From Hoylesella nanceiensis DSM 19126 = JCM 15639 (lineage in GTDB: Bacteria > Bacteroidota > Bacteroidia > Bacteroidales > Bacteroidaceae), in assembly GCF_000379965.1 (NCBI RefSeq), contig NZ_KB904328.1, forward strand, positions 434,001 through 498,000: a stretch of DNA of 64,000 bases, given 5' to 3'. The first letter of the stretch is position 1. Each line of letters begins with the position of its first letter. This document shows positions 10,863-59,172 of the stretch, one piece after another. Position numbers and translations under genes: made by a program. A model generated the notes under the pieces. That model was not told where the DNA came from and searched no databases. It saw nothing but the letters and a program-made list of their open reading frames with translations.

Positions 10863-11010
10863 TTAGGCAGTCTATTTAATCGCATAAGGCAGTCTGTTTA
10901 ATCGAACAAGGACTATAATTGACTGCACAAGGGGTCTAATAGACCGAGCAAGAACTCTAATTTGACAACATAAGGAGTTTAATTTACCGCATAAGGCACT
11001 CTGAAAATCC
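10863..11010. repeat. Degenerate 21-22 bp tandem repeat, seven units (TCTAATTT subfamily)
   Basis: Seven units begin at 10863, 10885, 10907, 10928, 10949, 10971 and 10992, each 21-22 bp. The loose consensus is YAAGGcagTCTaaTTTnacC. The first two units are nearly identical and the last is built into the terminator that follows. The period is not a multiple of three, and no ORF runs through it. It lies directly beside a second array with a different core at 11045-11130. Function unknown. Confidence 0.8.
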
Positions 11011-11031
11011 TCTTTTTCGGAGTGCTTTTTT
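10996..11031 (+). terminator. Rho-independent terminator of the GH31 transcript
   Basis: GCACTCTGAAAA (10996-11007) pairs with TTTTCGGAGTGC (11014-11025), 12 bp with one G-T pair and a 6-nt loop, followed by TTTTTTG. The left arm is the seventh unit of the tandem repeat, so the terminator seems to have arisen within the array. Confidence 0.85.
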
Positions 11032-11044
11032 GTTTCTTGCAAAT

Positions 11045-11130
11045 AAAAGCATTCTCCTTAGCCTTTAATAGCATTTTTATTAGCGTCTAAAAGCATTGCG
11101 GTTGGTAGGTAAAAGCACTGCGGTTAAGCG
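11045..11130. repeat. 22-bp phased palindromic-core array, locus A (4 units)
   Basis: Four units with cores reading AGCAtTCT, AGCAtTTT, AGCAtTGC and AGCAcTGC. Taking the TGC-equivalent triplet as the anchor, they lie at 11053, 11075, 11097 and 11119, exactly 22 bp apart. The same unit and spacing recur in five other gaps of this window. The gap is convergent (GH31 from the left, fimbrillin-like lipoprotein from the right). Confidence 0.75.
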
Positions 11131-11156
11131 AGCGTTTCGGGGGCATATCAAAATAA

Positions 11157-11182
11157 AAAGCGACACCATAAGATGTCGCTTT
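11157..11182 (-). terminator. Terminator of the fimbrillin-like gene
   Basis: AAAGCGACA (11157-11165) pairs with TGTCGCTTT (11174-11182). On the minus strand the hairpin is followed by TTATTTTG. It lies 28 bp beyond the stop of the leftward lipoprotein gene. Confidence 0.8.
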
Positions 11183-11210
11183 CGTTGTTTTATTGAGAAT
11201 TGAGGTACGC

Positions 11211-12992
11211 TTATCTCAAGCGGAATTTACCTGTTTGACTGAAATCTACAAGATATGGAGCACCTGTGTACTTATCGAAATTGACAAGAGAGATGGTGAA
11301 ACTTGGTGTGTCCATGTCGGCATCGTATCTTGAATGATCGTTGTCTACAAATGGAGAAACGTCGTTACGTTGGAAAGTAAAGGCCATTGCACCCTTATTG
11401 TCGGTTACTCCTGCATTTGAAGTCCAATAGAATCCTTGATCACCACAGAACAACATTATTCTAAGATTTTGCTGACTTGCCAGTGTTGGGCGACCGAAAT
11501 AGCCTGCAGCAGGCATAAACATATACTTGCTTCTGTCTGCTTTTGCAGGTCTTTCATAGTTCGCATCAGCGTCGTTGAATGTTCTCTTTGCGTGAGGGTT
11601 GTTAGTGCATGGACATGCTCTAAAGTCCATTCCGAGGAAACCTTCTTTGAGACTCTCAACTGTTACTCTTCTCTCTAAAGCAATTTGCTTGAGTGTTTTA
11701 ATCCAGATACCACCATTATAAAGATGTTTGTTCATTACATACATCTTCCATTCGTCCCACTTAGCCTCTCCATTTAGTATCAACCAAAGTGCTTCGTTGT
11801 GGTTGAATGCCACTGTTGCGCCACGAGTTGCAGCGTTGTCTGCTACATTTGAGGTAGAACCTCCAGGTATTTCGTTTTGGAAGCGTGGGTCGCTTGCCGA
11901 TGTTGCGTAACCAGTTGACTCGCTTGGCATATTTCTTCCAACACGCAATTTGTTAGTTGCGCCCTTCCAATAATATTCGTTTTGAACAGCGTCCCATGCG
12001 TAATATTCGTTTGGATCGAATTCTGTATCGAGTTTGATGTCACGAGAAAGCACACGATTTTCGCCTGCTACGAGCGTCTTGTTCTTAAATGTTTGCTTGT
12101 AATAGCCATAACCTCCTGTTTCTATATCCACTAAACCATATTCAATAGTAAGGTCTTCGTAGGTTCCAGCAGGCATAGTTATGATAATTCCGTTTTGAGT
12201 TACGTCTGCAGCTGTTGGCAAAGGCAACATGTTTTGTTGGTCACGGAAATTTGAATTGAATGATGATATGTGCTTACGACCAAGTAGTTCTTGTTTGTAG
12301 AACCATGCAATAGTGTTCTTTGCACCCGTTTTTGCCTCTCCCACTCCATTGTCGTCGAAGGCAAACTTACCGCTGATAGGCTTGTTTGCGGTTACATATA
12401 CCGCCACAACTCCTACCGAAGAAGAGAAGCCATAGGTTGAATAAGGGCTCAAAACCATGTAGGCAGCCTTGTGTTGAAGGGTGAATTGGTATTTGCCTTG
12501 AGCGTTTTTAGTTGCTACTGCCACGCCACAATCGCCATATTTGCCGATGTTGCTGGCGTCGTTTGGTGCTGTTTGAATTTGAGTTTCAGCGAAAGTCACC
12601 TCGTTAGCTGCGCTACTGTTGTTGCCAGTGTAGCGAACTTTATACGATGTTGCGTTGAGTTGGTCGTTAAAAAAGAAGTTAGCATCTTCTAACTTGCTAC
12701 CGCTTTGAATGTCGCTACCATCGTTTTTCACATAAACACCATCGTTGTTTTTGTCTATCCAAATTTGATCTCCGCTGTTCCAATAGAACAATAGTCCATC
12801 GAGACCAGAGGGAATAGTTACGTATTTGGCTCCTGTGCGGGTCTTTGCGCTGTTGGTTGCAAAGAATTCAGTGAGATGTTTGGGATTTTCTTTTGTATTT
12901 TTCTTTTGTTCTTCGGTTAAATCTTGCGAGCAAGCAGTGAAACCTGCCATTGCTATTGTAGCGAAGAATAGCTTAGTTATCAACTTATTCAT
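11211..12992 (-). CDS. Fimbrillin-like (type V pilus/Mfa-like) lipoprotein
   Basis: A 593-residue lipoprotein with lipobox GFTAC (Cys21) and an acidic stretch after the Cys. The first half follows the fimbrillin-family plan: a short linker, KTRTGAKYVTIP, then two beta-sandwich regions with LLFYWNSGDQIWID, YQFTLQHKAAYMVLSPYST and NKPISGKFAF, and a closing LVAGENRVLSRDIKL at about 330. The last 230 residues (from ALWLILNGEAKWDEW to GFYWTSNAGV) form a separate C-terminal domain in which Trp, Gly and Cys occur at intervals. It is probably surface exposed, as an adhesin or pilus component, or a stand-alone relative. No anchor or usher partners were seen nearby. A small peptide gene lies 47 bp upstream on the same strand. 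Confidence 0.65.
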   Translation of the reverse strand: MNKLITKLFFATIAMAGFTACSQDLTEEQKKNTKENPKHLTEFFATNSAKTRTGAKYVTIPSGLDGLLFYWNSGDQIWIDKNNDGVYVKNDGSDIQSGSKLEDANFFFNDQLNATSYKVRYTGNNSSAANEVTFAETQIQTAPNDASNIGKYGDCGVAVATKNAQGKYQFTLQHKAAYMVLSPYSTYGFSSSVGVVAVYVTANKPISGKFAFDDNGVGEAKTGAKNTIAWFYKQELLGRKHISSFNSNFRDQQNMLPLPTAADVTQNGIIITMPAGTYEDLTIEYGLVDIETGGYGYYKQTFKNKTLVAGENRVLSRDIKLDTEFDPNEYYAWDAVQNEYYWKGATNKLRVGRNMPSESTGYATSASDPRFQNEIPGGSTSNVADNAATRGATVAFNHNEALWLILNGEAKWDEWKMYVMNKHLYNGGIWIKTLKQIALERRVTVESLKEGFLGMDFRACPCTNNPHAKRTFNDADANYERPAKADRSKYMFMPAAGYFGRPTLASQQNLRIMLFCGDQGFYWTSNAGVTDNKGAMAFTFQRNDVSPFVDNDHSRYDADMDTPSFTISLVNFDKYTGAPYLVDFSQTGKFRLR

Positions 12993-13039
12993 ATTTCTAC
13001 TTTAAATAATTTCTATCCTGTTTAGTTTACTTCTAAAAA

Positions 13040-13237
13040 TTAATTGTCATCGTCTTCTTCTTGCCATTCGGTGCCCGTGTTGCCCGTGTGACCTGCATTT
13101 CCGCCAATTCGCTTGTTCGATCCTGCGGTGATGTGGTGTTCAATTTCTAAGTTTAGACTGCTACAACAAGGCTGAACATAGTCATTCTTTGTTAAAAGCA
13201 TCGCTCTTAACAAATCACTCTGATTTAATTTTGTCAT
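13040..13237 (-). CDS. Small 65-residue protein of unknown function
   Basis: A short ORF with a good ATG preceded by an A/T-rich leader (TTTAAACAAAAAAC), typical of Bacteroidota starts, lying 47 bp upstream of the fimbrillin-like gene on the same strand. The N-terminal half looks helical (MTKLNQSDLLRAMLL), then comes a Cys pair (PCCSSLNLE), a Gly-Gly (KRIGGNAG) and an acidic tail (EEDDDN). There is no signal peptide or membrane segment. I do not recognise a family. It may be a precursor peptide, a chaperone-like partner of the lipoprotein, or a regulator; none is shown by the sequence. Co-transcription with the lipoprotein is likely. Confidence 0.6.
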   Translation of the reverse strand: MTKLNQSDLLRAMLLTKNDYVQPCCSSLNLEIEHHITAGSNKRIGGNAGHTGNTGTEWQEEDDDN

Positions 13238-14034
13238 TGTTTTTTGTTTAAATTATTTTAAGTTCTATATCTTTTCAGTGTCGAATCGCTTATTCAAAAT
13301 CTCAAAAAAACGTAACTTTTTCATTTTTTTATTTTTGCAATTTTTTATAAATGCAATGCAAATGTATAACTTTTATGTGGAATAATTTACCTAAAATGCT
13401 TTTACTTTTGCAAATTAATATTATTTAATGAATAAAGAATTGTATACTTAGTTTGCAAAAAATGTTCCTTTTTTAGTTTTCTTGAGTTCAGTCATAATCC
13501 AATTTCTTGCCTTGTTTTTCTCTTTTTTCCATCTAATAAAAAGCAATTAGTCGCCCCCTTTTACTTCCACTTTTCCGCTTTCTCCTCCTTTTCTATCAGT
13601 TCAAACGAAGCAAGCACTTTACCCCTTTCTTTTAAGTGTTCTCCTTCTTCGCTTCAACTTAAACGCCCCTCTCGCTCTTCGCTTTCCCCATAAAAACCGA
13701 TCTTGACAACCTTGCCTTGTCAACTCAACACTTTTGTGGTTCAAAAGAATTGTTATTGAGACGAAATGTCGCCCCTTTTACAGTAGAAAAGGAGTGATTT
13801 GGCGGAGATTTTTGCGTAGCGAAAAGAAATGAGAGTCCTCCACTTAAGAAAGAAGAGCGTGAGAAGTGAAAAGAAAAGGAATATTTTTTGAAGAAAACAA
13901 AACGAGCGAAGAACGAGAAAAGACAACCTTGTAAGTAATTAAATATTAGGTGATTATAAGGTTTTTGAAATAAGATAAAAGGAAAGAAAAACAACGATGA
14001 GGAAAAAAGAGAGTGAAAAAAAGTTCGTGAAAAA
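13238..14034. other. Long gene-free region with a polypyrimidine half and a polypurine half
   Basis: About 800 bp with no credible gene. The first 200 bp are very AT-rich and should hold the promoter of the leftward operon; CAAATGTA at 13359-13366 reads TACATTTG on the minus strand. From about 13480 to 13740 the plus strand is strongly pyrimidine-rich, and from about 13790 to 14035 strongly purine-rich. GTCGCCCC(C)TTTTAC occurs twice (13550-13564, 13768-13781). A hairpin TTGACAA/TTGTCAA lies at 13703-13723. A similar tract occurs at 28136-28470. Confidence 0.6.
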
Positions 14035-14066
14035 TTTGGAGGGAATATAAAAAAGCACTACTTTTG
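14035..14066 (+). promoter_or_regulatory. Promoter of tRNA-Gln
   Basis: TTTG at 14035-14038, a 20-bp spacer and TACTTTTG at 14059-14066 match the Bacteroidota housekeeping consensus (TTTG, then TAnnTTTG). The tRNA starts 11 bp downstream. Confidence 0.8.
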
Positions 14067-14076
14067 CACTCGCAAT

Positions 14077-14147
14077 TGTCCCATGGTGTAATGGTAGCAC
14101 TACAGATTTTGGTTCTGCCAGCGGTGGTTCGAGTCCACCTGGGACAA
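14077..14147 (+). tRNA. tRNA-Gln (anticodon UUG)
   Basis: The 7-bp acceptor stem TGTCCCA/TGGGACA closes the cloverleaf, with discriminator A at 14147. The D-arm reads GTGT...GCAC with GG in its loop. The anticodon arm has loop TTTTGGT, giving anticodon TTG. The T-arm is GGTGG-TTCGAGT-CCACC. The anticodon stem has one A/C mismatch at its base (ACAGA/TCTGC). No CCA is encoded. The tRNA has its own promoter and is followed by a bidirectional terminator. Confidence 0.96.
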
Positions 14148-14150
14148 CAA

Positions 14151-14179
14151 AATAAGGCAATCATAACGATTGCCTTATT
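14151..14179. terminator. Bidirectional terminator between tRNA-Gln and HU
   Basis: AATAAGGCAATC (14151-14162) and GATTGCCTTATT (14168-14179) form a perfect 12-bp stem with a 5-nt loop. T-rich sequence follows on the plus strand and A-rich sequence precedes it, so it can serve both converging genes. Confidence 0.88.
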
Positions 14180-14202
14180 TTATTTTTGTCTGAAGCTATT
14201 AA

Positions 14203-14475
14203 TTATTTAATAGCGTCGTTTAATTCAGCACCAGCTTTAAATTTAGCTACTTTCTTAGCAGGAATGTTGATTTTTTGCTTTGTTGCAGGGTTAATACCTT
14301 GACGAGCTGGACGTTCGTTTACGCTAAATGTACCGAAACCAACTAATTGTACTTTGTCACCTGCTACCAATGCAGCTTTAATTGCTTCTGTTGTTGCATC
14401 TAAAGCCTTCTTTGCAGCTGCCTTGCTTAGGTCAGATCCAGCTGCGATTCTGTCGATTAATTCTGTTTTGTTCAT
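14203..14475 (-). CDS. HU family DNA-binding protein
   Basis: A 90-residue histone-like protein that bends and compacts DNA as a dimer. It has the full HU plan: N-terminal helices (MNKTELIDRIAAGSDLSKAAAKKALDAT), then GFGTFSVNERPAR, the beta-arm with NPATKQKINIPAK and a final helix. The proline at the arm tip (INPAT) is conserved. It is a single-gene unit with its own promoter at 14528-14558 and a terminator shared with tRNA-Gln. Several HU/IHF paralogues usually exist in these genomes, so no specific symbol is given. Confidence 0.97.
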   Translation of the reverse strand: MNKTELIDRIAAGSDLSKAAAKKALDATTEAIKAALVAGDKVQLVGFGTFSVNERPARQGINPATKQKINIPAKKVAKFKAGAELNDAIK

Positions 14476-14527
14476 AAAATCTATTATTTATTAAATAAGA
14501 GTTATCTTTATCTTCTACAATCATTCG

Positions 14528-14558
14528 CAAATATAAAGAGAACATTTCATAAAACAAA
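14528..14558 (-). promoter_or_regulatory. Promoter of the HU gene
   Basis: On the minus strand TTTG (plus 14555-14558), a 19-bp spacer and TATATTTG (plus 14528-14535) match the Bacteroidota consensus. It stands back to back with the rhomboid promoter (TATTTTTG at 14641-14648). Confidence 0.78.
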
Positions 14559-14681
14559 CAAAATCAAAGAAAAACTTCGTTATAACCCTTAAAAAAACGC
14601 TTTACGGCCCTTTATTGGGCAAAAAATCGATATTTTTTTGTATTTTTGCGCAGTTATTAAAGCTTTAAAGAAAATAGAATT

Positions 14682-15629
14682 ATGATGCGCAGTATTCCAT
14701 TCGCAACCAAGAATCTCTTGATTATAAATATAATTCTCTTCCTTGCCACTGTTGTTTATGGCGGATCTGAATTGGCAGGAGAGACACAATACCGACTAAA
14801 CGACTTGTTGGGCTTGCATTTTTTCCTTGCTCCCGACTTTAGAATATACCAACTTTTCACCTACATGTTTATGCATGGCAGTTTCCAACACTTGTTTTTT
14901 AACATGTTTGCGCTGTGGATGTTCGGTGGAATTGTTGAGGAGACCTTTGGTAGAAACAAGTTTATCTTTTTCTATTTCGTGTGCGGAATAGGAGCAGGAT
15001 TGTTTCAAGAGGCAGCTCAGTTTGGTGAGTTCTACTTCGCAGTGAAGAACCAATTGCCCGATTTCTCGTTCGCAGACATCGCCAAAGTGGCGCACAACAG
15101 CGAAAATGTACTGAACCTTTGGACCACAGTGGGGGCTTCGGGAGCCGTTTATGGCATTTTGTTAGCATTCGGAATGCTCTATCCCGAGCAACGAATTTTT
15201 ATCTTCCCCATTCCAGTTCCTATCAAAGCCAAGTGGTTTGTGATGATTTATGCAGGCATAGAGCTGTTCTATGCAATGTCGGGAACCAACAGTAATGTGG
15301 CTCATTTGGCGCATCTTGGCGGTATGGTGTTTGGCTTTATCTTGATAAAATATTGGCAGAAACACCCTGCTTCGGCAGCTCGTGTAGACGATGTGATGAA
15401 CCTTTTCGGCAATATTGGTAAGAAACGCTTCACCAATTCGAACACCCGACCACCGCATCAGGGCACTTCGAGTAGTACACATCGCACCAATGTAGATTGG
15501 GACTACAACGCAAAGCAGAAGCAAGAGCAAAAAGAAGTAGATGCCATCTTAGACAAGATTAGACGAAACGGCTATGACAGCTTAACCAAAGAAGAGAAAC
15601 AACGTCTCTTCGAACAAGGTAAAAAATAA
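14682..15629 (+). CDS. Rhomboid family intramembrane serine protease
   Basis: A polytopic inner-membrane protease of 315 residues. The catalytic dyad is visible: Ser153 in GASGAVYG and His211 in AHLAHLGGMVFG. Also present are the HGSFQHLFFNMFALWMFG helix (the HxxxN oxyanion region) and six hydrophobic segments. The cytosolic tail (about 230-315) is hydrophilic and ends with a predicted helix DSLTKEEKQRLFEQGKK, a tail often seen in Bacteroidota rhomboids. A promoter -7 box (TATTTTTG, 14641-14648) lies 34 bp upstream. The EEP gene starts 113 bp after it and may be co-transcribed. Substrate unknown. Confidence 0.92.
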   Translation: MMRSIPFATKNLLIINIILFLATVVYGGSELAGETQYRLNDLLGLHFFLAPDFRIYQLFTYMFMHGSFQHLFFNMFALWMFGGIVEETFGRNKFIFFYFVCGIGAGLFQEAAQFGEFYFAVKNQLPDFSFADIAKVAHNSENVLNLWTTVGASGAVYGILLAFGMLYPEQRIFIFPIPVPIKAKWFVMIYAGIELFYAMSGTNSNVAHLAHLGGMVFGFILIKYWQKHPASAARVDDVMNLFGNIGKKRFTNSNTRPPHQGTSSSTHRTNVDWDYNAKQKQEQKEVDAILDKIRRNGYDSLTKEEKQRLFEQGKK

Positions 15630-15741
15630 TATGATGAAGGCACTTTTTGATTGTTAACACATGGTTGAAACAAGCAAGAGGCGCCTTTTTCTCTTTTCAA
15701 TCCCCATACAAAATCAATTTAAACTACAAAAAATTAAACAG

Positions 15742-16827: not shown

Positions 16828-16884
16828 GGTAGAAAAAAAAAGCAAGAAACTATAAATATTTTTTCACTTATGATAAAAATATAG

Positions 16885-16892
16885 TATCTTTG
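16885..16892 (+). promoter_or_regulatory. Promoter -7 box for secDF
   Basis: TATCTTTG matches TAnnTTTG and is followed by CAC, 47 bp before the secDF start. A weak TTTT at 16861-16864 stands where the -33 element is expected. Confidence 0.7.
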
Positions 16893-16938
16893 CACATCTA
16901 TCTAATAGAAAAACAATAATCAAAATAATAAAAACAAA

Positions 16939-19926: not shown

Positions 19927-19939
19927 TATACAGAAAGAG

Positions 19940-19985
19940 ATGGAAGTTACACCTATTTATATATAGGGGTAGCTTCCATTTTTTA
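19940..19985 (+). terminator. Terminator of secDF
   Basis: ATGGAAGtTAC pairs with GTAgCTTCCAT (to 19979), with an inner CCTAT/ATAGG pairing, followed by TTTTTTAT. The rest of the gap to 20192 shows nothing clear beyond the leader of the next gene. Confidence 0.8.
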
Positions 19986-20192
19986 TCTTTTTATCATCAA
20001 ACTACACCCCTATTACCATCTAACTACTATCATTTTATACATTAATAAGGCAGCTTTTACACAGCTAACCCTGCAAAAAAATAAACGATTCAATACAATA
20101 GCCCTTGCAGAAAGGGTCAACACAAGCAAAGTGATGCTGTAGAGAGTCGTAAGATATATATTATTACTAACAATTTAATTCATTAACCGATT

Positions 20193-28603: not shown

Positions 28604-28703
28604 AGGGAGCAGAGAGGACAAAATAAAAGCACCGCTCTTAACGACAAAGAGCGATGCTTTTGATATCTAACGGCACTGCATTTAGCAGGCAATAGCGTTC
28701 CTA
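28604..28703. repeat. 22-bp phased palindromic-core array, locus F (3-4 units)
   Basis: Anchors lie at 28633 (AGCAcCGC), 28655 (AGCgaTGC), 28677 (GGCacTGC) and, weaker, 28699 (AGCgtTCC), each 22 bp apart. A possible further unit is at 28611. The array abuts the stop codon of the DUF3943 gene in a convergent gap. Confidence 0.75.
28625..28661 (-). terminator. Terminator of the DUF3943 gene, formed by two repeat units
   Basis: AAAAGCAcCGCTCTT (28625-28639) pairs with AAGAGCGaTGCTTTT (28647-28661), with one mismatch. On the minus strand it is followed by ATTTTGTCC. The two arms are adjacent 22-bp repeat units. Confidence 0.85.
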
Positions 28704-31262
28704 TTATAACTTACAAGAAATGCCCGCATTCACCTCATAGGTTCCTACCCATACATTGTCGTGATATTTATAGTGGGTGTAACGATGATAGAACGAGCCA
28801 GAAAGGTTGGCACTAACGGGGCCTTTGAGCTTGAATGAGAACATAGGCGACACCACAAAGAGGGCAGCATGACTGCGATCGCCCTGCACATTAAAATGCA
28901 ATTGGTTCAAGCCCGTTAAGTCTTTGTCTTCATATCCCTTGAGGGTGAAGATGTGATAAAAGTCGGTTTTCAATGTAAAGCGCACCAAACGAGGGAAATC
29001 GAGAATAGTTCTTACCTTGATGCTATAACCCATTCCCATGTTATAGTCACGTGGAGCCACTTGATTATAGTAGTCGCTTTTGGTACCACCAAGTAGGATA
29101 AGGCTCGAATAAATGTGCTGTTCAAGACGTGAAAGGTTGCCCTTGTTCTTAATTCGATACACAATACCAGGTCCAACACCCACGGCTTCCGAAATTAAGT
29201 AAGGCGTAATATTACTGCCATCTTTCACAGGAGAGCTGTCGTAGTAGTTGAAATGCTGATACACTCCGAACTCCGTTTCGATCTTTTTACCCATCACCAC
29301 AGGGGCAGTCCACAAGCGACCGAGCAGGTGAACACCACTCATTCGAGGCTGATTGCTCGAGAAGCCCATTGTAACATCGGCAGTGAAATAGTCGAAAGGC
29401 TTATTCTCTTTGTCGTTAAAGATGTCGCCATATTCGAAGAAGAAATTGACATAGGGGTTGTGTTCGCCTCTAAACAGAGCATTGTCGTCGGCAAGATAGC
29501 GGTTACCAACAGTAACTCTGAAATTCAAAGGAAAGCGGTTGATGTCGTGATATAGATAGTTCTTTTGTTTCACTTGCCAGCTTTCGCCACGCACAAGGCG
29601 GTTCACTCCACGCACAGGGTTGATAATAAAGGCTCCAGCCTCACGCAAAACACGACGGAAACCTCTCGACTTGTCGTTCAAAAGAATGCTCGATATGCGA
29701 TAAGTCACCTCACCTAAGCAGGTACCACCCATCGAAGTGGCGATCAAGTCGTTAAGAGCTGGAGGCTCGTTTTCGCCAAAATACTCCCACATCAAGCTAC
29801 CACCAAGGGCATAAGGATATGATTGCCAGAACGACATACCATTGCTTCGGGCAGCATTGAAATAGGTATTGCCGTGATAAGGGTGCATGTAGAGGTTGGT
29901 TTTAAAGGGGTCGTTGTCCCAAACAGGCAACGAACGCAAGTTTTTCCACACCGAGTTGAGGGTGATATAGCTATAATCGGCATGCTTATGGAAGCGGTTC
30001 CAGCTGAAAACGCCAACGTTGATAATAGCCGTTTGCGCTGCCGCTACCCACGGACGCTTAACAGGTGGGAGGGCATAAATATCGTTATTGGTGCTGTCGG
30101 TCAATATATCTTCTAACAAATTAAGCTCTTTGCGGTTGGCAGGGTTGTTGCGGTTGTAAGACAGGCTCAATCCTATTTCGCCAATAAACTGGTTCTTATA
30201 GAGCGTGTTTCGCTTGTAGTAGCGGGTGTGTCCGTAGCCTAATGACACGAAAGCACCGAGCTGTTTGGTGAATTGATAGTCGAGATTCACCTTTGTTTGT
30301 AGTGAGAATAGACGAGCAGGAACAAGTGGTTGCTCCTTTTTAAAGGTTTCGATATGATAGAATCCCACGTCGGCACTGAGCGTTAGGCGGGGAGATAGCG
30401 AGGCATATCGACCTATTCTGTAATACAAAGCACCGCTAAAGTCCTTGTCAAAGCCCAAATAAGGCGTTCCAAGTCCTACGATGCTATAAGTGTTTTTATT
30501 GCGAAAACGCATGGCAGCGTTAAGCAATGAGGCGTTACCAGCGTATAAAAGGAAGTCTATTTTCGTTGCAGGACTGATGTTGATGAGGCCAATCTTGCGA
30601 CGAGTAGAGTCTTGACTGATATTCATTAAACCCACTTGCCAACCCTTTTGGTTGCCTTGTGTGACATTGATTAAACCCACTTGCGCTCCAGAAAGCGTGT
30701 CGGCATAGTTGTAAGCACTTAGCTGAAAGCCCTTAACGGTGTGCGATGCCACGTTAACAAGACCCGAAATCTGTGCTCCTTTGTCTACTCCTGAGCTGAT
30801 ATTGGTGAATGCAGACAATTGAAGTCCACGCAAAGGGTTGAGCGATATGTTCGACATTCCCGACAACTGAACGCCCTTTGCTCGTCCAGCCACATTGGAA
30901 ACGGGCGAGATTTGCAAGCCTTTCATGTCGTTTCCAACGCCATTGAGCAAGCCACCAAAGGTCATTCCCTTAGCGTCTTGTCGCACTAACGACACCAAAC
31001 CGCCTATGTTTAGTCCCTTCATGTCTTGGTGAACATCGGCATGTATCACGCCTATTTGAACGCCTTTCAACAGATTGATGTTGTTGAAAATACCCAAATT
31101 GAAAAGGTGAACCTTTGTAGAATCGTTGTAAGTTTTAGTGATTGGAAGCGCAATATTAGTGCGCTGAGGATCGAGTTGTTGCTGTGCTTTGATACCACCG
31201 ATGCACAAAAATAAGGCGATATAGAAGCAAACAAAGCGTAGTTGTTTTGTGATGTTACCCAT
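28704..31262 (-). CDS. DUF3943 outer-membrane protein with LA_2272-type surface repeats
   Basis: The ATG at 31262 (MGNITKQLRF) is preferred to one 111 bp upstream, because it places a signal peptide ending GGIKAQ at the start; length is 852. After a short linker come about seven repeats of 21-24 residues with the pattern KGxQxSgxxNxs (KGLQISPVSNVAG, KGVQLSGMSNIS, GAQISGLVNVAS). These suit a stacked beta-solenoid and match the LA_2272 surface repeat as I know it. The C-terminal two thirds holds DUF3943 (about 440-560, FKTNLYMHPYHGNTYFNAAR) and beta-barrel-like strands ending in CKL. Likely an outer-membrane barrel with a repeat head. Function unknown. Its promoter (TATATTTG on minus, plus 31284-31291) lies 22 bp upstream. 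Confidence 0.8.
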   Translation of the reverse strand: MGNITKQLRFVCFYIALFLCIGGIKAQQQLDPQRTNIALPITKTYNDSTKVHLFNLGIFNNINLLKGVQIGVIHADVHQDMKGLNIGGLVSLVRQDAKGMTFGGLLNGVGNDMKGLQISPVSNVAGRAKGVQLSGMSNISLNPLRGLQLSAFTNISSGVDKGAQISGLVNVASHTVKGFQLSAYNYADTLSGAQVGLINVTQGNQKGWQVGLMNISQDSTRRKIGLINISPATKIDFLLYAGNASLLNAAMRFRNKNTYSIVGLGTPYLGFDKDFSGALYYRIGRYASLSPRLTLSADVGFYHIETFKKEQPLVPARLFSLQTKVNLDYQFTKQLGAFVSLGYGHTRYYKRNTLYKNQFIGEIGLSLSYNRNNPANRKELNLLEDILTDSTNNDIYALPPVKRPWVAAAQTAIINVGVFSWNRFHKHADYSYITLNSVWKNLRSLPVWDNDPFKTNLYMHPYHGNTYFNAARSNGMSFWQSYPYALGGSLMWEYFGENEPPALNDLIATSMGGTCLGEVTYRISSILLNDKSRGFRRVLREAGAFIINPVRGVNRLVRGESWQVKQKNYLYHDINRFPLNFRVTVGNRYLADDNALFRGEHNPYVNFFFEYGDIFNDKENKPFDYFTADVTMGFSSNQPRMSGVHLLGRLWTAPVVMGKKIETEFGVYQHFNYYDSSPVKDGSNITPYLISEAVGVGPGIVYRIKNKGNLSRLEQHIYSSLILLGGTKSDYYNQVAPRDYNMGMGYSIKVRTILDFPRLVRFTLKTDFYHIFTLKGYEDKDLTGLNQLHFNVQGDRSHAALFVVSPMFSFKLKGPVSANLSGSFYHRYTHYKYHDNVWVGTYEVNAGISCKL

Positions 31263-36597: not shown

Positions 36598-36690
36598 AAA
36601 GAAAAGCAACGCTATTGCAGTGCAAGGGCGTTGCTTTTTGTATGTAATAGCGTTGCTTTCGTGCGCTAATTGGATAGCAACAGAAATGGA
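36598..36690. repeat. 22-bp phased palindromic-core array, locus B (3-4 units)
   Basis: Anchors lie at 36610 (AGCAaCGC), 36632 (GGCgtTGC) and 36654 (AGCgtTGC), with a degenerate fourth at 36676; spacing is 22 bp throughout. The first two units pair as AAAGCAACGC/GCGTTGCTTT (36603-36612 and 36628-36637) followed by TTG, and A-rich sequence precedes them. This can serve as a bidirectional terminator between convergent rnr and the GT4 gene. Confidence 0.78.
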
Positions 36691-43192: not shown

Positions 43193-43218
43193 TTGTTCAT
43201 TTACAATATCAGTCAATA

Positions 43219-43345
43219 GGCAGTGCTCTCTTTTTGAGGGTGCTGCCTTTTTCGTTTTCAATAGCACAGCTTTTGCGGTGCAAAGAGACTGCTTTTAGGG
43301 GACAATAACAACCCTTTCGAGAAGTAAGAGCACAGCTTTTGAAAG
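43219..43345. repeat. 22-bp phased palindromic-core array, locus C (5-6 units)
   Basis: Anchors lie at 43224 (GGCagTGC), 43268 (AGCAcAGC), 43290 (GAGacTGC), 43312 (AACAaCCC) and 43334 (AGCAcAGC), with a poorly matching position at 43246. All fall on one 22-bp register. The first unit forms the left arm of the rubredoxin terminator (GGCAG 43219-43223 with CTGCC 43243-43247, then TTTTTC). The gap is convergent with GH85 copy 3. Confidence 0.75.
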
Positions 43346-47499: not shown

Positions 47500-47606
47500 A
47501 GGAGTTGAGCTATGCCTTTTGAACAGCATTGCTATTGAGGTGCAAAACGATTGCTTTTGAGTGCAAAGAGCAATGTTATTGAAGGGTGAAAGCAGTGCTG
47601 TTGCCA
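47500..47606. repeat. 22-bp phased palindromic-core array, locus D (4 units)
   Basis: Anchors at 47530 (AGCAtTGC), 47552 (ACGatTGC), 47574 (AGCAaTGT) and 47596 (AGCAgTGC) are exactly 22 bp apart, and each of the first three is followed by TTG at the same offset. This is one of the clearest arrays. A related core at 47508 (AGCTATGCC) is out of register. It lies upstream of the GH85 copy 3 promoter and downstream of the hcp terminator, both on the minus strand. Confidence 0.8.
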
Positions 47607-47622
47607 GGGGGTGAAAAAGAAA

Positions 47623-49470: not shown

Positions 49471-49491
49471 GATCTAAAAGAAAACTCCAAG

Positions 49492-49697: not shown

Positions 49698-49780
49698 TAT
49701 GTCTGTTTTATTGATGTTTTAAAACAAAAACCGAGTTTATTTTGCGTTGAAAGCAAAAGCAACGTTGGCTTTGTTAGTGT

Positions 49781-50758: not shown

Positions 50759-50769
50759 AACTTTTTGTT

Positions 50770-51939: not shown

Positions 51940-52031
51940 AAAAAAATCTTTTAAAATTCATTTTAAATGATATGGGCTGTTTCTTTTGCTGCCAAAGTAG
52001 AACAAAGAGCCCACCATAAGGTTTTATTTTC

Positions 52032-53102: not shown

Positions 53103-53184
53103 AATATATATTGTTATTCGTTTATAAATTAGGAATGATTAGATAAAACTACTAACATTTTGGTTGTTTTAATAATACCAATGT

Positions 53185-54705
53185 TTAGTTTTTTTTAGCC
53201 CAAGGCAAGTCTGTAGCCTCGTTATCTTCACCATTCAACAATTGTATTGCATTTTGATAGTTTTGCTTATTCAAGTCTTTTTCTGTGTCAGGATAGTGCA
53301 AACGGCGCATTCCTCGCATCGTATTTGTTATCACTTGAGGATTTAAATTGTTGATCGAAGGAGCCAATTCGGGGAATCCTGTGCGTCGATATTCAGCCCA
53401 TGCTTCGAGTCCCATGGGGTACATTGCAATCCATTTTTGTGTGATAATGCGTTCTAAGTTTTGATCGTTGCCATCAGCATCCCATTGAATTTTAACCTTT
53501 GTGTTGCGTTGATAGTTATATTTTGATCCACGAGGGTCGTTCGAATGTCCATCGGGTGTTGCCGTGTTGTTATTGATATAGGCTTGTATTGCATTGGCAT
53601 CTACGCCATATTGTTCCATAGAAAGTTTTATTCCTTCTTTATAAAACGCCTCAGCAGTTCCACCAACGTTCCATCCTTTCAATGCGCATTCTGCTTTTAA
53701 GAAGGCCACTTCGGCAGCAACACAAATGGGAAGGGGTGATGTTGTTTGAAATTTTGGCAACGAATAGTTTGCTACATCTCCCTTTTGGAAAGCGGCTTCG
53801 CCAGTGCGCATGCCAATATAACGAGTGTGATCGAATGCCGATGTGGTGAAATAAGCATCACGACGAGGGTCGTTATAGCCATTCATATAATCGACAATAG
53901 ACGAACTTGCACGAAGATCTCCCCAGCCTGTTGAGGCCAATTGATATGGGTTTCCTTGCACTCCAGGCGACATTAAAGCATTATATTGGTTAGCATCTAT
54001 CAATCCTGCAGGGCTTGTACATATTTGTTCTGCAGCTGTTTTGTCGCCAATTCTCACTGCTGCACGCAGTGCAATAGAGTTGGCTAAGCGTGCCCATTTG
54101 CTGTAATCACCTTCGTAAAGCAAATCGTTTGCCGCCAAAGGACGTGATGAAGGATATTGTTTGCTATATTGATATAATGTGTTGGCTGCTGATGTTAGGT
54201 CGGAAATGATGTGTGCATAAACATCTTCTACCGACTCATAAGCAGTGTTGAATTTACCATTTGCAATACTACTATATGGTATTGGGCCATAACAATCGCA
54301 CACTCTCATAAGCACAGCAGCCTTTAATAGGGTTGCCATAGCCCAGAAATGTCCCGATTTGTTAGTAGCTTCTTCTATGCTATAAAGGTTCACAAGTCCT
54401 TTAAAGGGAGTGTTAAACGGAATAGCATTCCATCCTTCCGAAGCATTAAAGGTATCGAAATTTTGTCCACCCCATCGGTTCGAGCAGGTCATATAACCAC
54501 CTAATGCACCCACCATTTGGTCTATCATCTGCGAATTGTTTTGCTGAACAAACATCAAAGGCTCCATCATTGCAGGAAGAAGCACAGAAGGTACACCTTT
54601 ATACACCGCATATTTGTTCGTGTTATACTCTTCAAAGTTGTCTGTGCACGCACTAACGCCAAGTGTAAAGAGAAAGAGTGCTATTATTTTACTTATATTT
54701 TTCAT
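53185..54705 (-). CDS. SusD/RagB family surface lipoprotein (SusD-like, BACOVA/BT3984 type)
   Basis: The ATG at 54705 gives 506 residues with lipobox GVSAC (Cys20), then TDNFEEYN; an upstream in-frame start at 54750 would overlap susC. The protein matches the SusD_2/SusD-like group used by N-glycan loci: YNTNKYAVYKGVPSVLLPAMM, NGKFNTAYESVEDVYAHIISDL, RLANSIALRAAVRIGD and a C-terminal WIAMYPMGLEAWAEYRRTGFP. It caps the partner SusC and binds the freed oligosaccharide. 16 bp separate it from susC; the GH18 gene follows after 82 bp. Confidence 0.94.
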   Translation of the reverse strand: MKNISKIIALFLFTLGVSACTDNFEEYNTNKYAVYKGVPSVLLPAMMEPLMFVQQNNSQMIDQMVGALGGYMTCSNRWGGQNFDTFNASEGWNAIPFNTPFKGLVNLYSIEEATNKSGHFWAMATLLKAAVLMRVCDCYGPIPYSSIANGKFNTAYESVEDVYAHIISDLTSAANTLYQYSKQYPSSRPLAANDLLYEGDYSKWARLANSIALRAAVRIGDKTAAEQICTSPAGLIDANQYNALMSPGVQGNPYQLASTGWGDLRASSSIVDYMNGYNDPRRDAYFTTSAFDHTRYIGMRTGEAAFQKGDVANYSLPKFQTTSPLPICVAAEVAFLKAECALKGWNVGGTAEAFYKEGIKLSMEQYGVDANAIQAYINNNTATPDGHSNDPRGSKYNYQRNTKVKIQWDADGNDQNLERIITQKWIAMYPMGLEAWAEYRRTGFPELAPSINNLNPQVITNTMRGMRRLHYPDTEKDLNKQNYQNAIQLLNGEDNEATDLPWAKKN

Positions 54706-54721
54706 AAGAATCTTTGTTGTT

Positions 54722-57700
54722 TTAGAATTGAACTTTAACATTAAAACCAATGTTTCGAGTAGAAGGTTGCATAAAATAGTCTACCCCTTGATAGAAGTTA
54801 CTACTTGTTGAAGCTGACAATTCGGGATCGAATGGAGCTTTACAATATATCATCCAAAGGTTTCGTGCAAGTAGTCCTACAGATAAATTCAACTTATTAT
54901 GGAACCATTTCTTAGGAAAATCATAGCTCAAACTCAATTCTTGAAGGCGCACATTGGTGGCACTATATAAGTAATAAGTGCCGTAACCTCCTTCTGCTGT
55001 AGATATTGTTTGATAGTATTTCTTAGCATCAATCTTTCCATAATTAATAGGAACACCGCCATTGTTGCGTGCATCTGCAGAGGCTTGCGATCCTCCATAG
55101 TAGTCTAAAATACCCTGTGTTGCCGAGTAAACCAATCCACCAACACGTGCAGAAACAACAAAACCAAGTGTAAGTCCTTGATAAGAAATAGAGTTGTTCC
55201 AGCCCACATTGTAGTTAGGAGCTAATCTTCCAGCCTTTCTCAAGCCTGTTTCTTGCATACTTAAATTGCCCGAAGAAGGATCGATAGCAATGTTTCCATT
55301 AGGATCTCTCTTCAATTCGTGCTTGATATAGATATCGCTCATGGTGCCACCTTCACGTAGAATAACTTGTGGAGCAACAGAGCTTGCGCCCAAATAGGCT
55401 TTTTGAATTTCAGGAATACCCTCGCTATTGACGCTTGCTTTTGATAATTCTTTAATTCTATTTTGGTTTAATGTGTAGGTGAGAGTTGATGCAACGCCAA
55501 TTTTTCCGAATGTGTTGCGATAGCCCAACGTTAGCTCTATACCTTGGTTTTGTACGTTTCCGCTTTGCACAATTTGTTCAGAATACAACGAAGATGTACT
55601 TGTTTTGCCATAAATTGTTTGGTTATAGGTGTTCGAGCGATATAGGGTTACATCTAAATTGATAGTGTTATTTAAGAATTTAGAGTTCAATCCAAGTTCC
55701 CACGAGCGTGTGTTCTCGGGTTTCATATGCTCTAATGGAGCGATATTAGACTTCTCCCACAAATGGGTTTGATTATTGAAATGATAGCTTGGATTAGACA
55801 AGAAACGATCAAAAGCCGAAGCAACATCAGAATAAGAGGCACGCATTTTTACAAAAGTAATCCACTTAGGAAGCTTAACCATGTTAGAAATTACAGCCGA
55901 AACGCCTACTGAAGGATAGAAGAACGACGACTGATCAGAATAAGCTAACTGCGAAGCCCAGTCGTTTCTGCCTGTAACTGTTAAGTAAAGCATATCTTTA
56001 TAGCCCAGTTCCACCGATCCAAATATCGATTGAGTTTGGTCGTGCCAGCCCTCTTGAATGGTTTTATACTTATTCGAATAGTTGATGTTGTTCATCGCAA
56101 AGAAGTTTGGTAGCAACAAATTACCTGCTCCTCCTGCAGCCTCAAACACTTGATCTTTAATCGAAGTACCAATGTTTGCCGTGAGATTATAATCCTCTCC
56201 AAAACGTTTGTTGATGTTAACCATCACATCACCATATATTGTTCGGTCGTGTTGTGTTTGGTCTCCGTAGCCTCCATTCGCATCCGAAATGGTTAAAAGA
56301 GTCGAAGCATAGTTCTTATTTAACAAACGATATTCTGAGTTATCCACTCTAACACGTCCAACAACATTTAGCCAATCGAGCACATTCCATTTTAAAGAAG
56401 CGTTCAACATATAGCGATGTTTGTCTGTGGTGCGTGTCATTCGCTTTTGAATCCAATAAGGATTTTGCAACGAATGCACCCCTTCTCCATAGGGCCAATA
56501 TTGTGTCATGTAGCCCAAAATAGGGTCCCAACGCTCAAAATTGCGAATTTCATCGAAGTGATCTCCTCGTGGAAATAAATACAAAGCAGGCAAAGGGTTG
56601 TTGTATTTACCCTGAGAAACCATGTTAGCATCTTTCTGAACGATATAGTTTGCACCAAAATCTAACAGCAATTTATCGTTAAGAAACGATGTTGTGTTGC
56701 GTGCTGTGAAATTATAACGTGAATAAGTGTTTTCTAAAACAATTCCTTTTGCGTTTGTAGTAGAAACCGATATATAGGTTTGATTTTTGCTATTACCAGT
56801 TGATAGCGACACCGAATTAATGATGTTAGAGCCTGTATTGAAAAATTTAGCAATGTCGAAATTGCCGTTTTGTGGGCTTCCCCAGCTCATTAAACCCGAG
56901 CTTGTGCCATAGCTGTTTTGAGTTTTTGGCAAGAAGGTCGCATGCGAAAACGTGCTACTATTGCTCACCGTAACCGTTGTTTTGTCTTTACTTCCACGCT
57001 TGGTGTTAATAATCACAACACCATTGGCAGCGTCGCTACCATATAAAGCCGCAGCCGATGGACCTGTTAACATGTTTACACTCTCAATATCTTCGGGGTT
57101 TATGTCAGCCGAACTCTCCGAACCCATCGGTGTTGAGTAGGCTCCTTCGCCTCCACCAAAAGAGTGATTATACATTGGAACACCGTCTATTACATACAAA
57201 ACGTTGTTGCTTTTTTCGATAGACTTTGTACCACGCATCACCACACGCACAGCACTTCCTGCTCCACCTGCACCTGTATTGATTTGAACACCAGCTACCT
57301 TGCCCACTAACGAGTTAACAAAGTTGGCGTCTTTGTTGCGTGTAAGCTCTTCGGCCGACACCTTTTGCACGTTGTAGCTCAATGCTTTTTCTGCACGTTT
57401 AATACCCAATGCCGTCACCACCACTTGGTCTATTGTGAGTGCATCGCTTTTTAAAACAATGTTTAAACTGCCACTTCCTGCATGTTTTACCTCTTGAGTA
57501 GCCATACCAATGTAGCTCACTAAAAGGGTTGCACCTTTAGGAATGGTTAACGAGAACTTGCCATCTGCATCTGTTATGGCACCATTGGTAGCAGCTTTTG
57601 CGCCTTTTATGCGAATGGTTGCACCAATAACAGGCTCGCCTGCTTCGTCTACAACTCTTCCTGCTACCTTAACATCACTGTTAGACTGTTGTGCTTCTCG

Positions 57701-57844
57701 GTTCTCTAAAGCTGTTACATTTGGGCTAAGATCCATTGAACTTCTACCTAAAAGATGAGTAGAGTTGGCAGGTGCACTTGCAAATGCTTCTAAACAGCAG
57801 CAAGATAGAAAAACACTTACTGGGAAAATTTTTCCTGTTTTCAT
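54722..57844 (-). CDS. SusC/RagA family TonB-dependent outer-membrane transporter
   Basis: A complete 1040-residue transporter, first gene of PUL 2. It has a signal peptide containing an unusual Cys run (FLSCCCLEAFASA), then a 30-residue linker. The carboxypeptidase-regulatory-like domain (about 60-140) includes VAGRVVDEAGEPVIGATI and LLVSYIGMATQEV. The TonB-box region is IDQVVVTALGIKR. The plug contains NNVLYVIDGVPM and AAALYGSDAANGVVIINTKRG, and a 22-strand barrel follows, ending VKVQF. No N-terminal signalling (STN) extension is visible, so it is not expected to pair directly with an anti-sigma factor. It probably imports N-glycan oligosaccharides released by the GH18 enzyme. Confidence 0.95.
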   Translation of the reverse strand: MKTGKIFPVSVFLSCCCLEAFASAPANSTHLLGRSSMDLSPNVTALENREAQQSNSDVKVAGRVVDEAGEPVIGATIRIKGAKAATNGAITDADGKFSLTIPKGATLLVSYIGMATQEVKHAGSGSLNIVLKSDALTIDQVVVTALGIKRAEKALSYNVQKVSAEELTRNKDANFVNSLVGKVAGVQINTGAGGAGSAVRVVMRGTKSIEKSNNVLYVIDGVPMYNHSFGGGEGAYSTPMGSESSADINPEDIESVNMLTGPSAAALYGSDAANGVVIINTKRGSKDKTTVTVSNSSTFSHATFLPKTQNSYGTSSGLMSWGSPQNGNFDIAKFFNTGSNIINSVSLSTGNSKNQTYISVSTTNAKGIVLENTYSRYNFTARNTTSFLNDKLLLDFGANYIVQKDANMVSQGKYNNPLPALYLFPRGDHFDEIRNFERWDPILGYMTQYWPYGEGVHSLQNPYWIQKRMTRTTDKHRYMLNASLKWNVLDWLNVVGRVRVDNSEYRLLNKNYASTLLTISDANGGYGDQTQHDRTIYGDVMVNINKRFGEDYNLTANIGTSIKDQVFEAAGGAGNLLLPNFFAMNNINYSNKYKTIQEGWHDQTQSIFGSVELGYKDMLYLTVTGRNDWASQLAYSDQSSFFYPSVGVSAVISNMVKLPKWITFVKMRASYSDVASAFDRFLSNPSYHFNNQTHLWEKSNIAPLEHMKPENTRSWELGLNSKFLNNTINLDVTLYRSNTYNQTIYGKTSTSSLYSEQIVQSGNVQNQGIELTLGYRNTFGKIGVASTLTYTLNQNRIKELSKASVNSEGIPEIQKAYLGASSVAPQVILREGGTMSDIYIKHELKRDPNGNIAIDPSSGNLSMQETGLRKAGRLAPNYNVGWNNSISYQGLTLGFVVSARVGGLVYSATQGILDYYGGSQASADARNNGGVPINYGKIDAKKYYQTISTAEGGYGTYYLYSATNVRLQELSLSYDFPKKWFHNKLNLSVGLLARNLWMIYCKAPFDPELSASTSSNFYQGVDYFMQPSTRNIGFNVKVQF

Positions 57845-57959
57845 TTATTTATAGATTTATTAATGCTCTGTTCGAACATAAGACCTCAATAAAAGATATC
57901 GAGAGAGCTTCATTTTATTGTATAGCTATTGATTGTTTAGCCGTTTAGGTTTATCAATG

Positions 57960-57967
57960 CAAATATA
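57960..57967 (-). promoter_or_regulatory. Promoter -7 box of PUL 2
   Basis: The minus strand reads TATATTTG followed by CATTG, 116 bp upstream of susC. No -33 TTTG is found at 19-20 bp, so an activator is likely. The rest of the gap (57968-58232) is AT-rich near the promoter and shows no gene. Confidence 0.65.
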
Positions 57968-58232
57968 TATAATGATTTGTAAAGGTTTGTTTTCTATGTA
58001 CTTGTTTAACATTAATAAGTAAAACTAAATACAAATTTAATGAAAGGGAGTGGATATAAGTGTGTTATAGGCACCCAATGAAGCCTATTGAAAACCATTG
58101 TTTGACCCTTTTCCTGAGCTTTTCAGCAAAGCTTTTCCACAAAAGAGCATCATTAAGTTAGATTATTGAGCACACAACCCACCAACAAAAGAGGCAGGCG
58201 TGTTGAGGTAAAGACGAGCACTTCGTTTGCAA

Positions 58233-58991
58233 TTAGCCGAGCGTGAAGAGCAGTTTGCCTGCTTTTTTATCTTCAGAATGAAACTCGAAACCTTCAAAAT
58301 CGAAGTTTTTTAGCTGGTCGATATGCTTACATTCGTTCTCAATGATATATCTTGTCATCGTTCCTCGACACATCTTTGCATATACAACAATGCTCTTTAG
58401 TTTTCCATCTTTGTGCACCATAAACTCGGGTTGAACCACTTTAATGGCCTTAGTAACCTTCTTCCAGTCGAACAAACGTTTCATTTCAGCACTGGCAAGA
58501 TACACAAGTATGCCGTCGTCTTGCTTCACCGAGTCGATTAAACAATCGGTAAGCAGAGGCTTCCAATAGTCGAACATCGACTGATTGTTATGGGGGAGCA
58601 CCACATTTCCTTCGAGTCGGTAGTTCTTAATGCCGTCGCATGGGCGCAAAAGACCATATAAGAACGAGGTGATCCACAGGTGTTTCTGAGCGAAATTCAT
58701 CTGTTTTTTCGAGAACGACTGCGCATTTAAATACTTATATGCAATGCCCGAATAAGCCAAAACCGCTGGGAGCGTGGTTTGAGGGAGCATGAAATCGTTG
58801 TAGCGCATTTTGTTGATCGCCCCCAACTGAGCGTTGATTTTGAGCATGCTCGACAGCTCTTCTGCCGAATAAGCAGCCATTTCACGAGCATTGTTGATGG
58901 CTTCTTGCAGAAAGAGGGGTTCAGTTTGTTGAATTTTTGCACACTCGGCTTGGGCAATCATGTCTTTAGCACACGACAAAAGTATTTGCAT
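58233..58991 (-). CDS. yaaA: Peroxide stress protein YaaA (DUF328)
   Basis: A 252-residue cytosolic protein of the YaaA/UPF0246 family, which lowers free iron and protects DNA under hydrogen peroxide stress. Family hallmarks are seen along the chain: YNDFMLPQTTLPAVLAYSGIAYKYLNAQSF, HLWITSFLYGLLRPCDGIKNYRLE, ILVYLASAEMKRLFDW, and the end FDFEGFEFHSEDKKAGKLLFTLG. Length is as expected. It is divergent from pncB, with a phased repeat array between the two genes. Confidence 0.95.
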   Translation of the reverse strand: MQILLSCAKDMIAQAECAKIQQTEPLFLQEAINNAREMAAYSAEELSSMLKINAQLGAINKMRYNDFMLPQTTLPAVLAYSGIAYKYLNAQSFSKKQMNFAQKHLWITSFLYGLLRPCDGIKNYRLEGNVVLPHNNQSMFDYWKPLLTDCLIDSVKQDDGILVYLASAEMKRLFDWKKVTKAIKVVQPEFMVHKDGKLKSIVVYAKMCRGTMTRYIIENECKHIDQLKNFDFEGFEFHSEDKKAGKLLFTLG

Positions 58992-59073
58992 ATAAAAAAG
59001 AATTATTTGAGGTTTATTAAGGGCAAAGATAGTGTTTTTCTGTTAAAACGAGAGCGTTCTAAAAATTTAATCG

Positions 59074-59081
59074 TACTTTTG
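59074..59081 (+). promoter_or_regulatory. Promoter -7 box of pncB
   Basis: TACTTTTG matches TAnnTTTG. It lies 112 bp upstream of the pncB start and just before a repeat array, so the array would be transcribed as part of the pncB leader. Confidence 0.65.
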
Positions 59082-59085
59082 CGTT

Positions 59086-59172
59086 GCTAATATCAATGCT
59101 ATTGAGTGCCAATGTCACTGATATTGCACATCAAAAGCAATAACATTGCAGTGTAAAAGCATTGCTTTCTTC
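59086..59172. repeat. 22-bp phased palindromic-core array, locus E (4 units)
   Basis: Anchors at 59097 (ATCAaTGC), 59119 (GTCAcTGA), 59141 (AGCAaTAA) and 59163 (AGCAtTGC) are exactly 22 bp apart. In the first three units ATTG stands at the same offset after the core. It lies between the pncB promoter and start codon. Confidence 0.78.

Follow-up and report, generated by a model that had tools for sequence, protein, structure and literature searches.

Regularly spaced arrays of 22-bp units in Hoylesella nanceiensis and some of its relatives: candidate sites for a DNA-binding protein with a possible chromosome-scale role

Introduction

Several described bacterial systems are built from short repeated DNA sites. 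Repetitive extragenic palindromic sequences and bacterial interspersed mosaic elements (REP/BIME) are numerous intergenic, partly palindromic short repeats, with a sequence that is specific to the species. Iteron arrays, at the origins of plasmids and of second chromosomes, consist of direct repeats about two turns of the helix apart that are bound side by side. The nucleoid-occlusion sites of Noc and SlmA are palindromic single sites, distributed across the chromosome, for an oligomerising protein. Finally, the ends of Tn7-type transposons carry multiple 22-bp TnsB sites, according to PMC9371665. Here, we describe a family of tandem arrays in Hoylesella nanceiensis DSM 19126 = JCM 15639 (Bacteroidales), first noticed in a stretch of 64,000 nucleotides (assembly GCF_000379965.1, contig NZ_KB904328.1, positions 434,001 to 498,000; “the window”). 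We suggest that each locus, usually 88 bp long, is an array of predicted sites for a sequence-specific DNA-binding protein with a role at the scale of the chromosome, a reading to which we give just under an even chance.

Each of the described systems shares some properties with the arrays. Like REP/BIME with their REP-associated tyrosine transposases (RAYT), the arrays comprise many intergenic, partly palindromic short repeats whose sequence varies by species; they differ in consisting of exact 22-bp head-to-tail units that point the same way, and in lacking a selected hairpin, since covariation within units is negative and no consensus fold is found. Identity with REP/RAYT was rejected because the H. 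nanceiensis genome has no match to the Y1 transposase (PF01797). Iterons, too, are direct repeats in tandem with a constant length of about 22 bp, but the 144 arrays found here are spread over all four sampled stretches of the genome, rather than forming one origin beside a rep gene. Tn7-type ends have several 22-bp direct sites, and target immunity could space their copies; however, no shared terminal sequence was seen in the flanks of 64 H. nanceiensis arrays, and ten copies of an array-bearing element in a relative, G012, have no clear target-site duplication. Noc/SlmA sites are palindromic, scattered along the chromosome and depleted near its terminus, but they are single, whereas ours form four-unit arrays; arrays seem still to occur near the putative terminus on contig C1, as placed by GC skew alone. 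The dispersed ~370-bp copies around 10 of the 25 arrays in G012 resemble a miniature inverted-repeat transposable element, while the H. nanceiensis arrays are divergent, have unconserved flanks and include no near-identical copies sharing a boundary. CRISPR arrays, in which near-identical repeats alternate with unique spacers of similar length, differ in that our units are divergent and the spacer from core to core is ~7 bp; cas genes were not searched for. The first-pass annotation of the window knew of no counterpart, and a literature search, with subscription journals mostly outside its coverage, found no matching description. The four-unit 22-bp array looks like an undescribed kind of element.

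Period and genome-wide occurrence

The first-pass annotation had proposed an exact 22-bp period in six intergenic gaps. Autocorrelation bears this out: identity at lag 22 in the gaps of the window is 0.321, against 0.281 ± 0.006 for 200 dinucleotide shuffles (z 6.4), and lags 22 and 44 rank highest among all lags of at least 10. In the whole genome, AAAAGCANTGCTTTT occurs at 66 places (control, 0). When two exact cores were sought with a free gap of 2–40 bp, all 32 matches had a distance of 22 or 44 bp (14 forward and 18 reverse, some being one place counted on both; 0 in the reversed control). For loosely matched cores in gaps (855 kb sampled), the distances were 22 bp (49 times), 44 bp (32) and 66 bp (17), every other distance among those listed occurring at most once each.

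A cyclic 22-bp profile was trained on C1:1-400000, C5 and the window; gene boundaries are those of mechanically called open reading frames (ORFs), and the profile itself defines what counts as an array and how many units it has. With a score of at least 20, the training sequences contain 86 arrays in 86 gaps, 64 with exactly four units, and three shuffled gap sets contain 0 arrays each at the same threshold. The held-out C2:1-400000 added 58 further arrays, 45 with four units. Scanning thus yielded 144 arrays in 1.255 Mb sampled of the 2.65-Mb genome, and only one gap holds two of them. The arrays reported as having three to six units are real, but the usual number is four, with exactly four units in 109 of the 144. 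Where strong units have a neighbor within 120 bp, 350 of 374 are exactly 22 bp apart and 12 are at 44 bp, strongly supporting the proposed selection on spacing; 40 arrays align without gaps across 88 columns. A sequence model of the H. nanceiensis array has 160 matches in the genome at E 0.01 or better, a lower bound because 150 of 3749 first-look candidates were scored, with both strands counted.

The lag-22 signal is nearly limited to intergenic DNA, as proposed, but not strictly so, given a small excess in coding sequence and five arrays above threshold in 676 kb of ORFs. In 150 kb of E. coli K-12, used as a control, lag 22 had a z of 1.5 with 0 segments (first 50 kb alone, z 2.4).

Anatomy and polarity of the units

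The consensus of the unit is roughly YAAWAnnCAnTGCTTTTRCn plus a two-base spacer. Its conservation is uneven. The AA at −7,−6 and the TT at +6,+7 are kept in 322–329 of 334 units (96–99%), while at the intervening positions the most frequent base reaches only 42–84%, and the triplet between AA/TT and the core varies in linked ways. In the 64 four-unit arrays of the training sequences, information is 14.6–17.0 bits per unit, against 1.7–2.3 bits in the flanking 22-mers.

The core, first described as palindromic, is only partly so, and the unit is directional within its array. Two strong half-sites face each other less often than expected, whether inside a unit (odds ratio, OR, 0.25; p 1.7e-10) or at the junction of two units (OR 0.22, p 1.4e-8). 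Strong halves tend to come back on the same side from one unit to the next, clearly so for left halves (OR 2.7, p 5e-5) but not for right ones (OR 1.4, p 0.13). Orienting each array by its own units gives a leave-one-out score of 5274, against 5207 ± 4.8 for 12 nulls in which units were flipped independently. Together, these observations indicate that the arrays are head-to-tail repeats with residual dyad symmetry. Among the 70 of 109 arrays with confident orientation, polarity agrees with gene strand in 21 cases and disagrees in 17, neighboring arrays have like polarity in 34 of 66 cases, and polarity is unrelated to contig. A strand-directed signal of the Chi or KOPS kind is not supported, since polarity follows neither gene strand, contig nor neighbor.

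The partial palindromy of the units would suit an RNA element, in which the transcribed array folds into hairpins. However, pairing within units is below expectation (z −3.9 at ±3 and −4.7 at ±5; −2.4 and −3.7 after orientation), RNAalifold finds 0 pairs on the 40 gapless arrays, and array orientation is random relative to genes. RNA structure was rejected on the negative Watson–Crick covariation and the 0 RNAalifold pairs; as an explanation of the arrays, we consider it highly improbable. In the window, Rfam at gathering scores matched a tRNA only. Of the two functions first suggested, protein binding or RNA folding, the former fits the uneven conservation and the same-direction units, as far as sequence can indicate, and the latter is disfavored.

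Neutral minisatellites generated by slippage would account for repeats that are tandem and mostly non-coding, with adjacent units slightly more alike than chance. They would not account for spacers that differ, the near absence of indels, the preference for four units per array, the conservation of selected positions, regular spacing along the chromosome, or the sharing of one unit by all parts of the genome that were sampled. We find this explanation barely credible.

Placement along the chromosome

Among H. nanceiensis gaps of at least 150 bp, an array is present in 45 of 72 that are convergent, 74 of 213 that are codirectional and 17 of 73 that are divergent. Adjusted for length, the odds are 3.5 for convergent versus codirectional gaps, and 0.58 for divergent versus codirectional gaps. 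For arrays in codirectional gaps, the median distance is 144 bp to the stop codon upstream and 228 bp to the start codon downstream (first 86 arrays). The enrichment in convergent gaps, the depletion in divergent ones and the proximity to upstream stops would be expected of transcription-boundary elements, i.e., bound protein arrays acting as bidirectional roadblocks or terminators at gene ends, and the convergent bias could reflect such work. Against this, 27 of the 72 convergent gaps are empty and 17 of the 73 divergent ones are occupied, polarity is unrelated to gene strand, and regular spacing is not predicted. In addition, the arrays of two relatives are distributed differently: 5 divergent, 5 codirectional and 1 convergent in G004, and 5, 15 and 5, respectively, in G012. 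A convergent bias as a general rule was dropped on the gap types of these two genomes, and they lower the weight of the transcription-boundary explanation, which we regard as distinctly unlikely.

Array density averages one per 4.7–11 kb, depending on the region; C2:100000-300000 has more than twice the density of C1 (~one per 4.7 kb versus 11 kb). The evenness of spacing was compared with 2000 simulations in which gaps of matching orientation type were drawn at random, with length as the weight. The coefficient of variation (CV) of spacing is 0.435 in C1, against 0.833 at random (0/2000), and 0.395 against 0.781 in C5:183-391 kb (0/2000). Lower values than random are also seen in C5:0-90 kb (0.496 against 0.744, p 0.02) and C2:100-300 kb (0.509 against 0.739, p 0.002). 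G012 is as regular as H. nanceiensis (0.432 against 0.792, 0/2000). Across nine stretches, one of them part of another, arrays are more even than random (<0.05) in eight by the local measure CV2 and in five by CV.

One region, C5:87-183 kb (96 kb; L135-L140), contains zero arrays. Among nine of its 61 ORFs that were scanned with Pfam are an integrase, a relaxase and CTnDOT-type TraG, TraJ and TraM, marking a conjugative region. The other four of the nine are of restriction, nuclease or DarT type. The dnaA gene is on C7; the origin and terminus were guessed from GC skew alone, and the guess carries no weight.

Arrays in related genomes

The YchF protein of H. nanceiensis is most similar to those of Prevotella and other Prevotellaceae. 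Relatives share the arrays, as the first-pass annotation expected, with related or different unit sequences by species. The two-core search over 119 relatives, H. nanceiensis included, gave matches in eight genomes; the distance is 22 or 44 bp in 11 of 11 matches in G012, 21 of 23 in G014 and 21 of 26 in G047, and four other genomes have one match each, none at 22 or 44 bp. The sequence model of the H. nanceiensis array matches 31 of 109 genomes, counting its own; one of the 31 lies outside the genus, and 16 genomes besides its own have at least 10 matches, all match numbers being lower bounds because 40 candidates per genome were scored. Longer samples were taken from seven relatives, six at 120–260 kb and one at 400 kb, and at most 20 kb from the remaining genomes. 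In G061, de novo analysis found 17 arrays in 400 kb with the unit CGAAWTTGnWnWGCAAAWTSGG, of which eight have four units, five have five and four have three. There are 25 arrays in 260 kb of G012 (17 of five units), 11 in 120 kb of G004 (8 of four units) and 8 in 120 kb of G016 (five to seven units). In Prevotella aurantiaca JCM 15754, the ychF region (L044, NZ_BAKF01000007.1) has 22-bp repeats with another spelling, and paired cores are 44 bp apart in both places found.

Genes that flank arrays in one species also tend to flank them in others. Among 75 gene-side pairs of 40% identity or more, 15 such cases were counted, against 10.7 ± 1.4 expected from permutations that kept the genome pair, and the gap-length bin of one member, fixed (p 0.003); without the identity filter and strata, the table is 19/6/21/45 (OR 6.8). 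Whole gaps conserved between species number eight, too few to judge.

Pooled over L031-L110, the best 80 of 595 matches, the commonest high-identity lags are 22 and 21 bp (23 and 14 segments). Outside Prevotella-named loci (L049-L110), 21 bp, not 22, is the strongest pooled intergenic lag. The strongest lags in G045 (L164, L241-L245) are 21 and 42. In G009:C1 (L154), there are strong intergenic periods of 14, 21, 28 and 35 bp, not 22, which suggests a 7-bp repeat family.

Comparison between species also bears on intrinsically curved DNA, in which phased A-tracts would pin supercoil apices without a specific protein. A-tract phasing has been linked to nucleoid loops, according to PMC3940949. 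The A/T content of the H. nanceiensis arrays autocorrelates at 11 and 22 bp, and the bend predicted from wedge values is above the 95% limit of base-composition shuffles in 94% of the arrays of G061, 84% of those of G012 and 73% of those of G004. However, just 31% of the arrays pass this limit in H. nanceiensis and 25% in G016, and curvature needs neither a strict word per species nor unit polarity. On balance, curvature by itself is an improbable explanation.

A mobile origin

The arrays may also be remnants of mobile elements in which a transposase binds tandem 22-bp sites, as at a Tn7-type end, immunity spaces the copies, and the spelling of the unit reflects the element family. The period matches the 22-bp TnsB sites described in PMC9371665, and over-dispersed spacing is what target immunity would be expected to produce; the regular spacing could have this source instead. 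In G012, 10 of the 25 arrays lie inside a dispersed ~370-bp element (L211-L223, C51), which fits a mobile origin. This element contains a five-unit array and has 10 copies in 260 kb, the left flank being 82% alike between copies and the right flank 60%. A search of 119 relatives gave matches in six other genomes, in five of them confined to the array part or its immediate neighborhood; in the sixth, G081, 47 bases match elsewhere (E 7e-4). No complete copy of the element was seen outside G012 in this search, where five candidates per genome were scored, so that the matches are a lower bound. Arrays may have been spread by mobile copies, after which selection kept the 88 bp alone, a sequence of events pieced together from two states in different species.

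Other evidence counts against mobile remnants. The flanks of the 64 four-unit H. nanceiensis arrays are almost unconserved, and the AA/TT positions and the 22-bp spacing have been kept while other positions diverged, which neutral decay would not achieve. Among the 10 G012 copies, no clear target-site duplication was found, the best candidate being a 4-mer in 8 of 10 that lies within conserved element sequence. The Y1 transposase (PF01797) had 0 matches in five of 12 genomes searched (H. nanceiensis, G012, G024, G026 and G047); it was positive in the other seven, including G045, in which no array family is present in the 120 kb sampled. A search for the Mu/Tn7 transposase (PF09299) gave 0 of 8, without any control scoring either, and is hence uninformative. 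We consider a mobile-element explanation unlikely, though worth keeping in view.

A possible mechanism

In the reading that we favor, a sequence-specific protein binding the arrays, one protein unit, probably a dimer, would bind each 22-bp unit. Because the units follow head to tail every 22 bp, about two helical turns, four protein units would lie on one face of the DNA and form a short cooperative assembly. The case for side-by-side cooperative assembly comes from the conservation of a few positions, the exact two-turn spacing, the same-way units and the usual unit number. The arrays, nearly always one per gap and independent of the direction of transcription, would then anchor or insulate chromosomal loops or supercoil domains. 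A chromosome-scale role is suggested by the regular spacing, the near limit of one array per gap, the random polarity and the absence from the conjugative region. Since some species with a different unit sequence keep the 22-bp array, the protein would need to co-evolve with its sites.

Several observations weigh against this reading. First, binding, and with it cooperativity, chromosome function and co-evolution of the protein, is predicted from DNA sequence. Second, regularity is incomplete. At large scale, some parts of the genome are denser in arrays than others, and both the division of C5 and the part taken from C2 were picked after the density change and the array-free region had been seen; for the whole of C2, CV is not significant (p 0.125), although local CV2 is (0/2000). 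Among relatives, G061 is regular only locally (CV p 0.195, CV2 p 0.015), G004 is borderline (CV p 0.051, CV2 p 0.044), and G016 is not regular (CV p 0.93, CV2 p 0.26). Third, there are 8 divergent and 5 convergent gaps of at least 150 bp in G004, and 7 and 9, respectively, in G012; with the array counts given above, promoter avoidance is not supported in those genomes. Fourth, G024 has just three similar arrays, G026 has mixed families, and 120 kb of G045, a complete genome of the same genus, has no array family beyond one low-complexity run; the feature is therefore dispensable or replaced. Fifth, a protein that structures the chromosome would not usually have a recognition unit that changes so quickly within one genus. 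Sixth, the similarity of adjacent units is slightly above expectation (4347 versus 4193 identities, z 5.6), and coding sequence has its own small lag-22 excess (z 4.4, among lags not multiples of 3). The G012 arrays that lie within the ~370-bp element belong on the same side of the balance.

Arrays of the window

All six loci first reported in the window were called by the 22-bp profile, and their gap types, four convergent, one codirectional and one divergent, are as first stated. Array edges are sharp, with adjoining in-phase units scoring −3.6 to −37.6 bits. Array 1 (11041..11128, minus strand, convergent gap) has four units, starting at 11041, 11063, 11085 and 11107, with 8.3, 12.2, 17.9 and 17.5 bits; the adjoining in-phase units score −20.8 and −25.9, the whole array 55.9 bits, and the polarity margin is −13.3. 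The same gap holds a second tandem repeat at 10865-11002, with a period of 21–22 bp and another unit (~six copies of the AAGGnAnTCTAATT type).

Three further arrays lie in convergent gaps. Array 2 (28621..28708, no strand assigned) has four units of 13.7, 12.4, 14.8 and 16.6 bits. Its last unit (28687-28708, 16.6 bits) overlaps the end of the adjoining minus-strand ORF by 5 bases and lies partly outside the ORF-delimited gap used for scanning. Array 3 (36598..36663, no strand assigned) has three units of 16.9, 14.0 and 17.2 bits; the stretch 36664-36685 (−3.6 bits) may be a degenerate fourth unit. Array 4 (43256..43343, plus strand, polarity margin at least 3) has four units of 19.6, 16.0, 8.8 and 16.3 bits. 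An extra position had been reported for it at 43224; an in-phase unit does exist there (43212-43233), but it is degenerate (−1.0 bit).

The remaining two reported loci, both with four units, are array 5 (47518..47605, minus strand, codirectional gap, polarity margin at least 3), with 14.8, 16.5, 14.0 and 17.0 bits, and array 6 (59085..59172, no strand assigned, divergent gap), with 18.1, 14.5, 10.9 and 18.2 bits. Array 6 is flanked by a yaaA-like gene on the minus strand and a nicotinate phosphoribosyltransferase gene on the plus strand (Pfam). A weak seventh array of four units, absent from the first-pass list, is located at 13717..13804 (plus strand, polarity margin at least 3; 4.3, 13.2, 6.4 and 7.7 bits; array, 31.6 bits). 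Overlapping with it is a short ORF (13725-13994), perhaps not a real gene.

Implications

More tentatively, and with a probability well short of even, the arrays may constitute a Prevotella-type chromosome address system, in which evenly distributed, directional standard arrays, mostly of four 22-bp sites and probably a few hundred per genome, would anchor loops or supercoil domains, with a word that changes along with its binding protein and that newly acquired DNA lacks. We know of no evenly tiled insulator-like sites of this kind from any bacterium, and, to our knowledge, the folding and insulation of Bacteroidales chromosomes are largely unknown. If the regular spacing arises from target immunity instead, a transposon would have left an ordered array across the genome. 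If the arrays are sites for a dedicated protein, as we favor, that protein should be retrievable with one probe, and its sites should be readable in Hi-C and chromatin immunoprecipitation. Related species with a changed word would then provide a natural experiment, and a standard, regularly spaced, sequence-defined element would offer a direct handle on the folding of Bacteroidales chromosomes.

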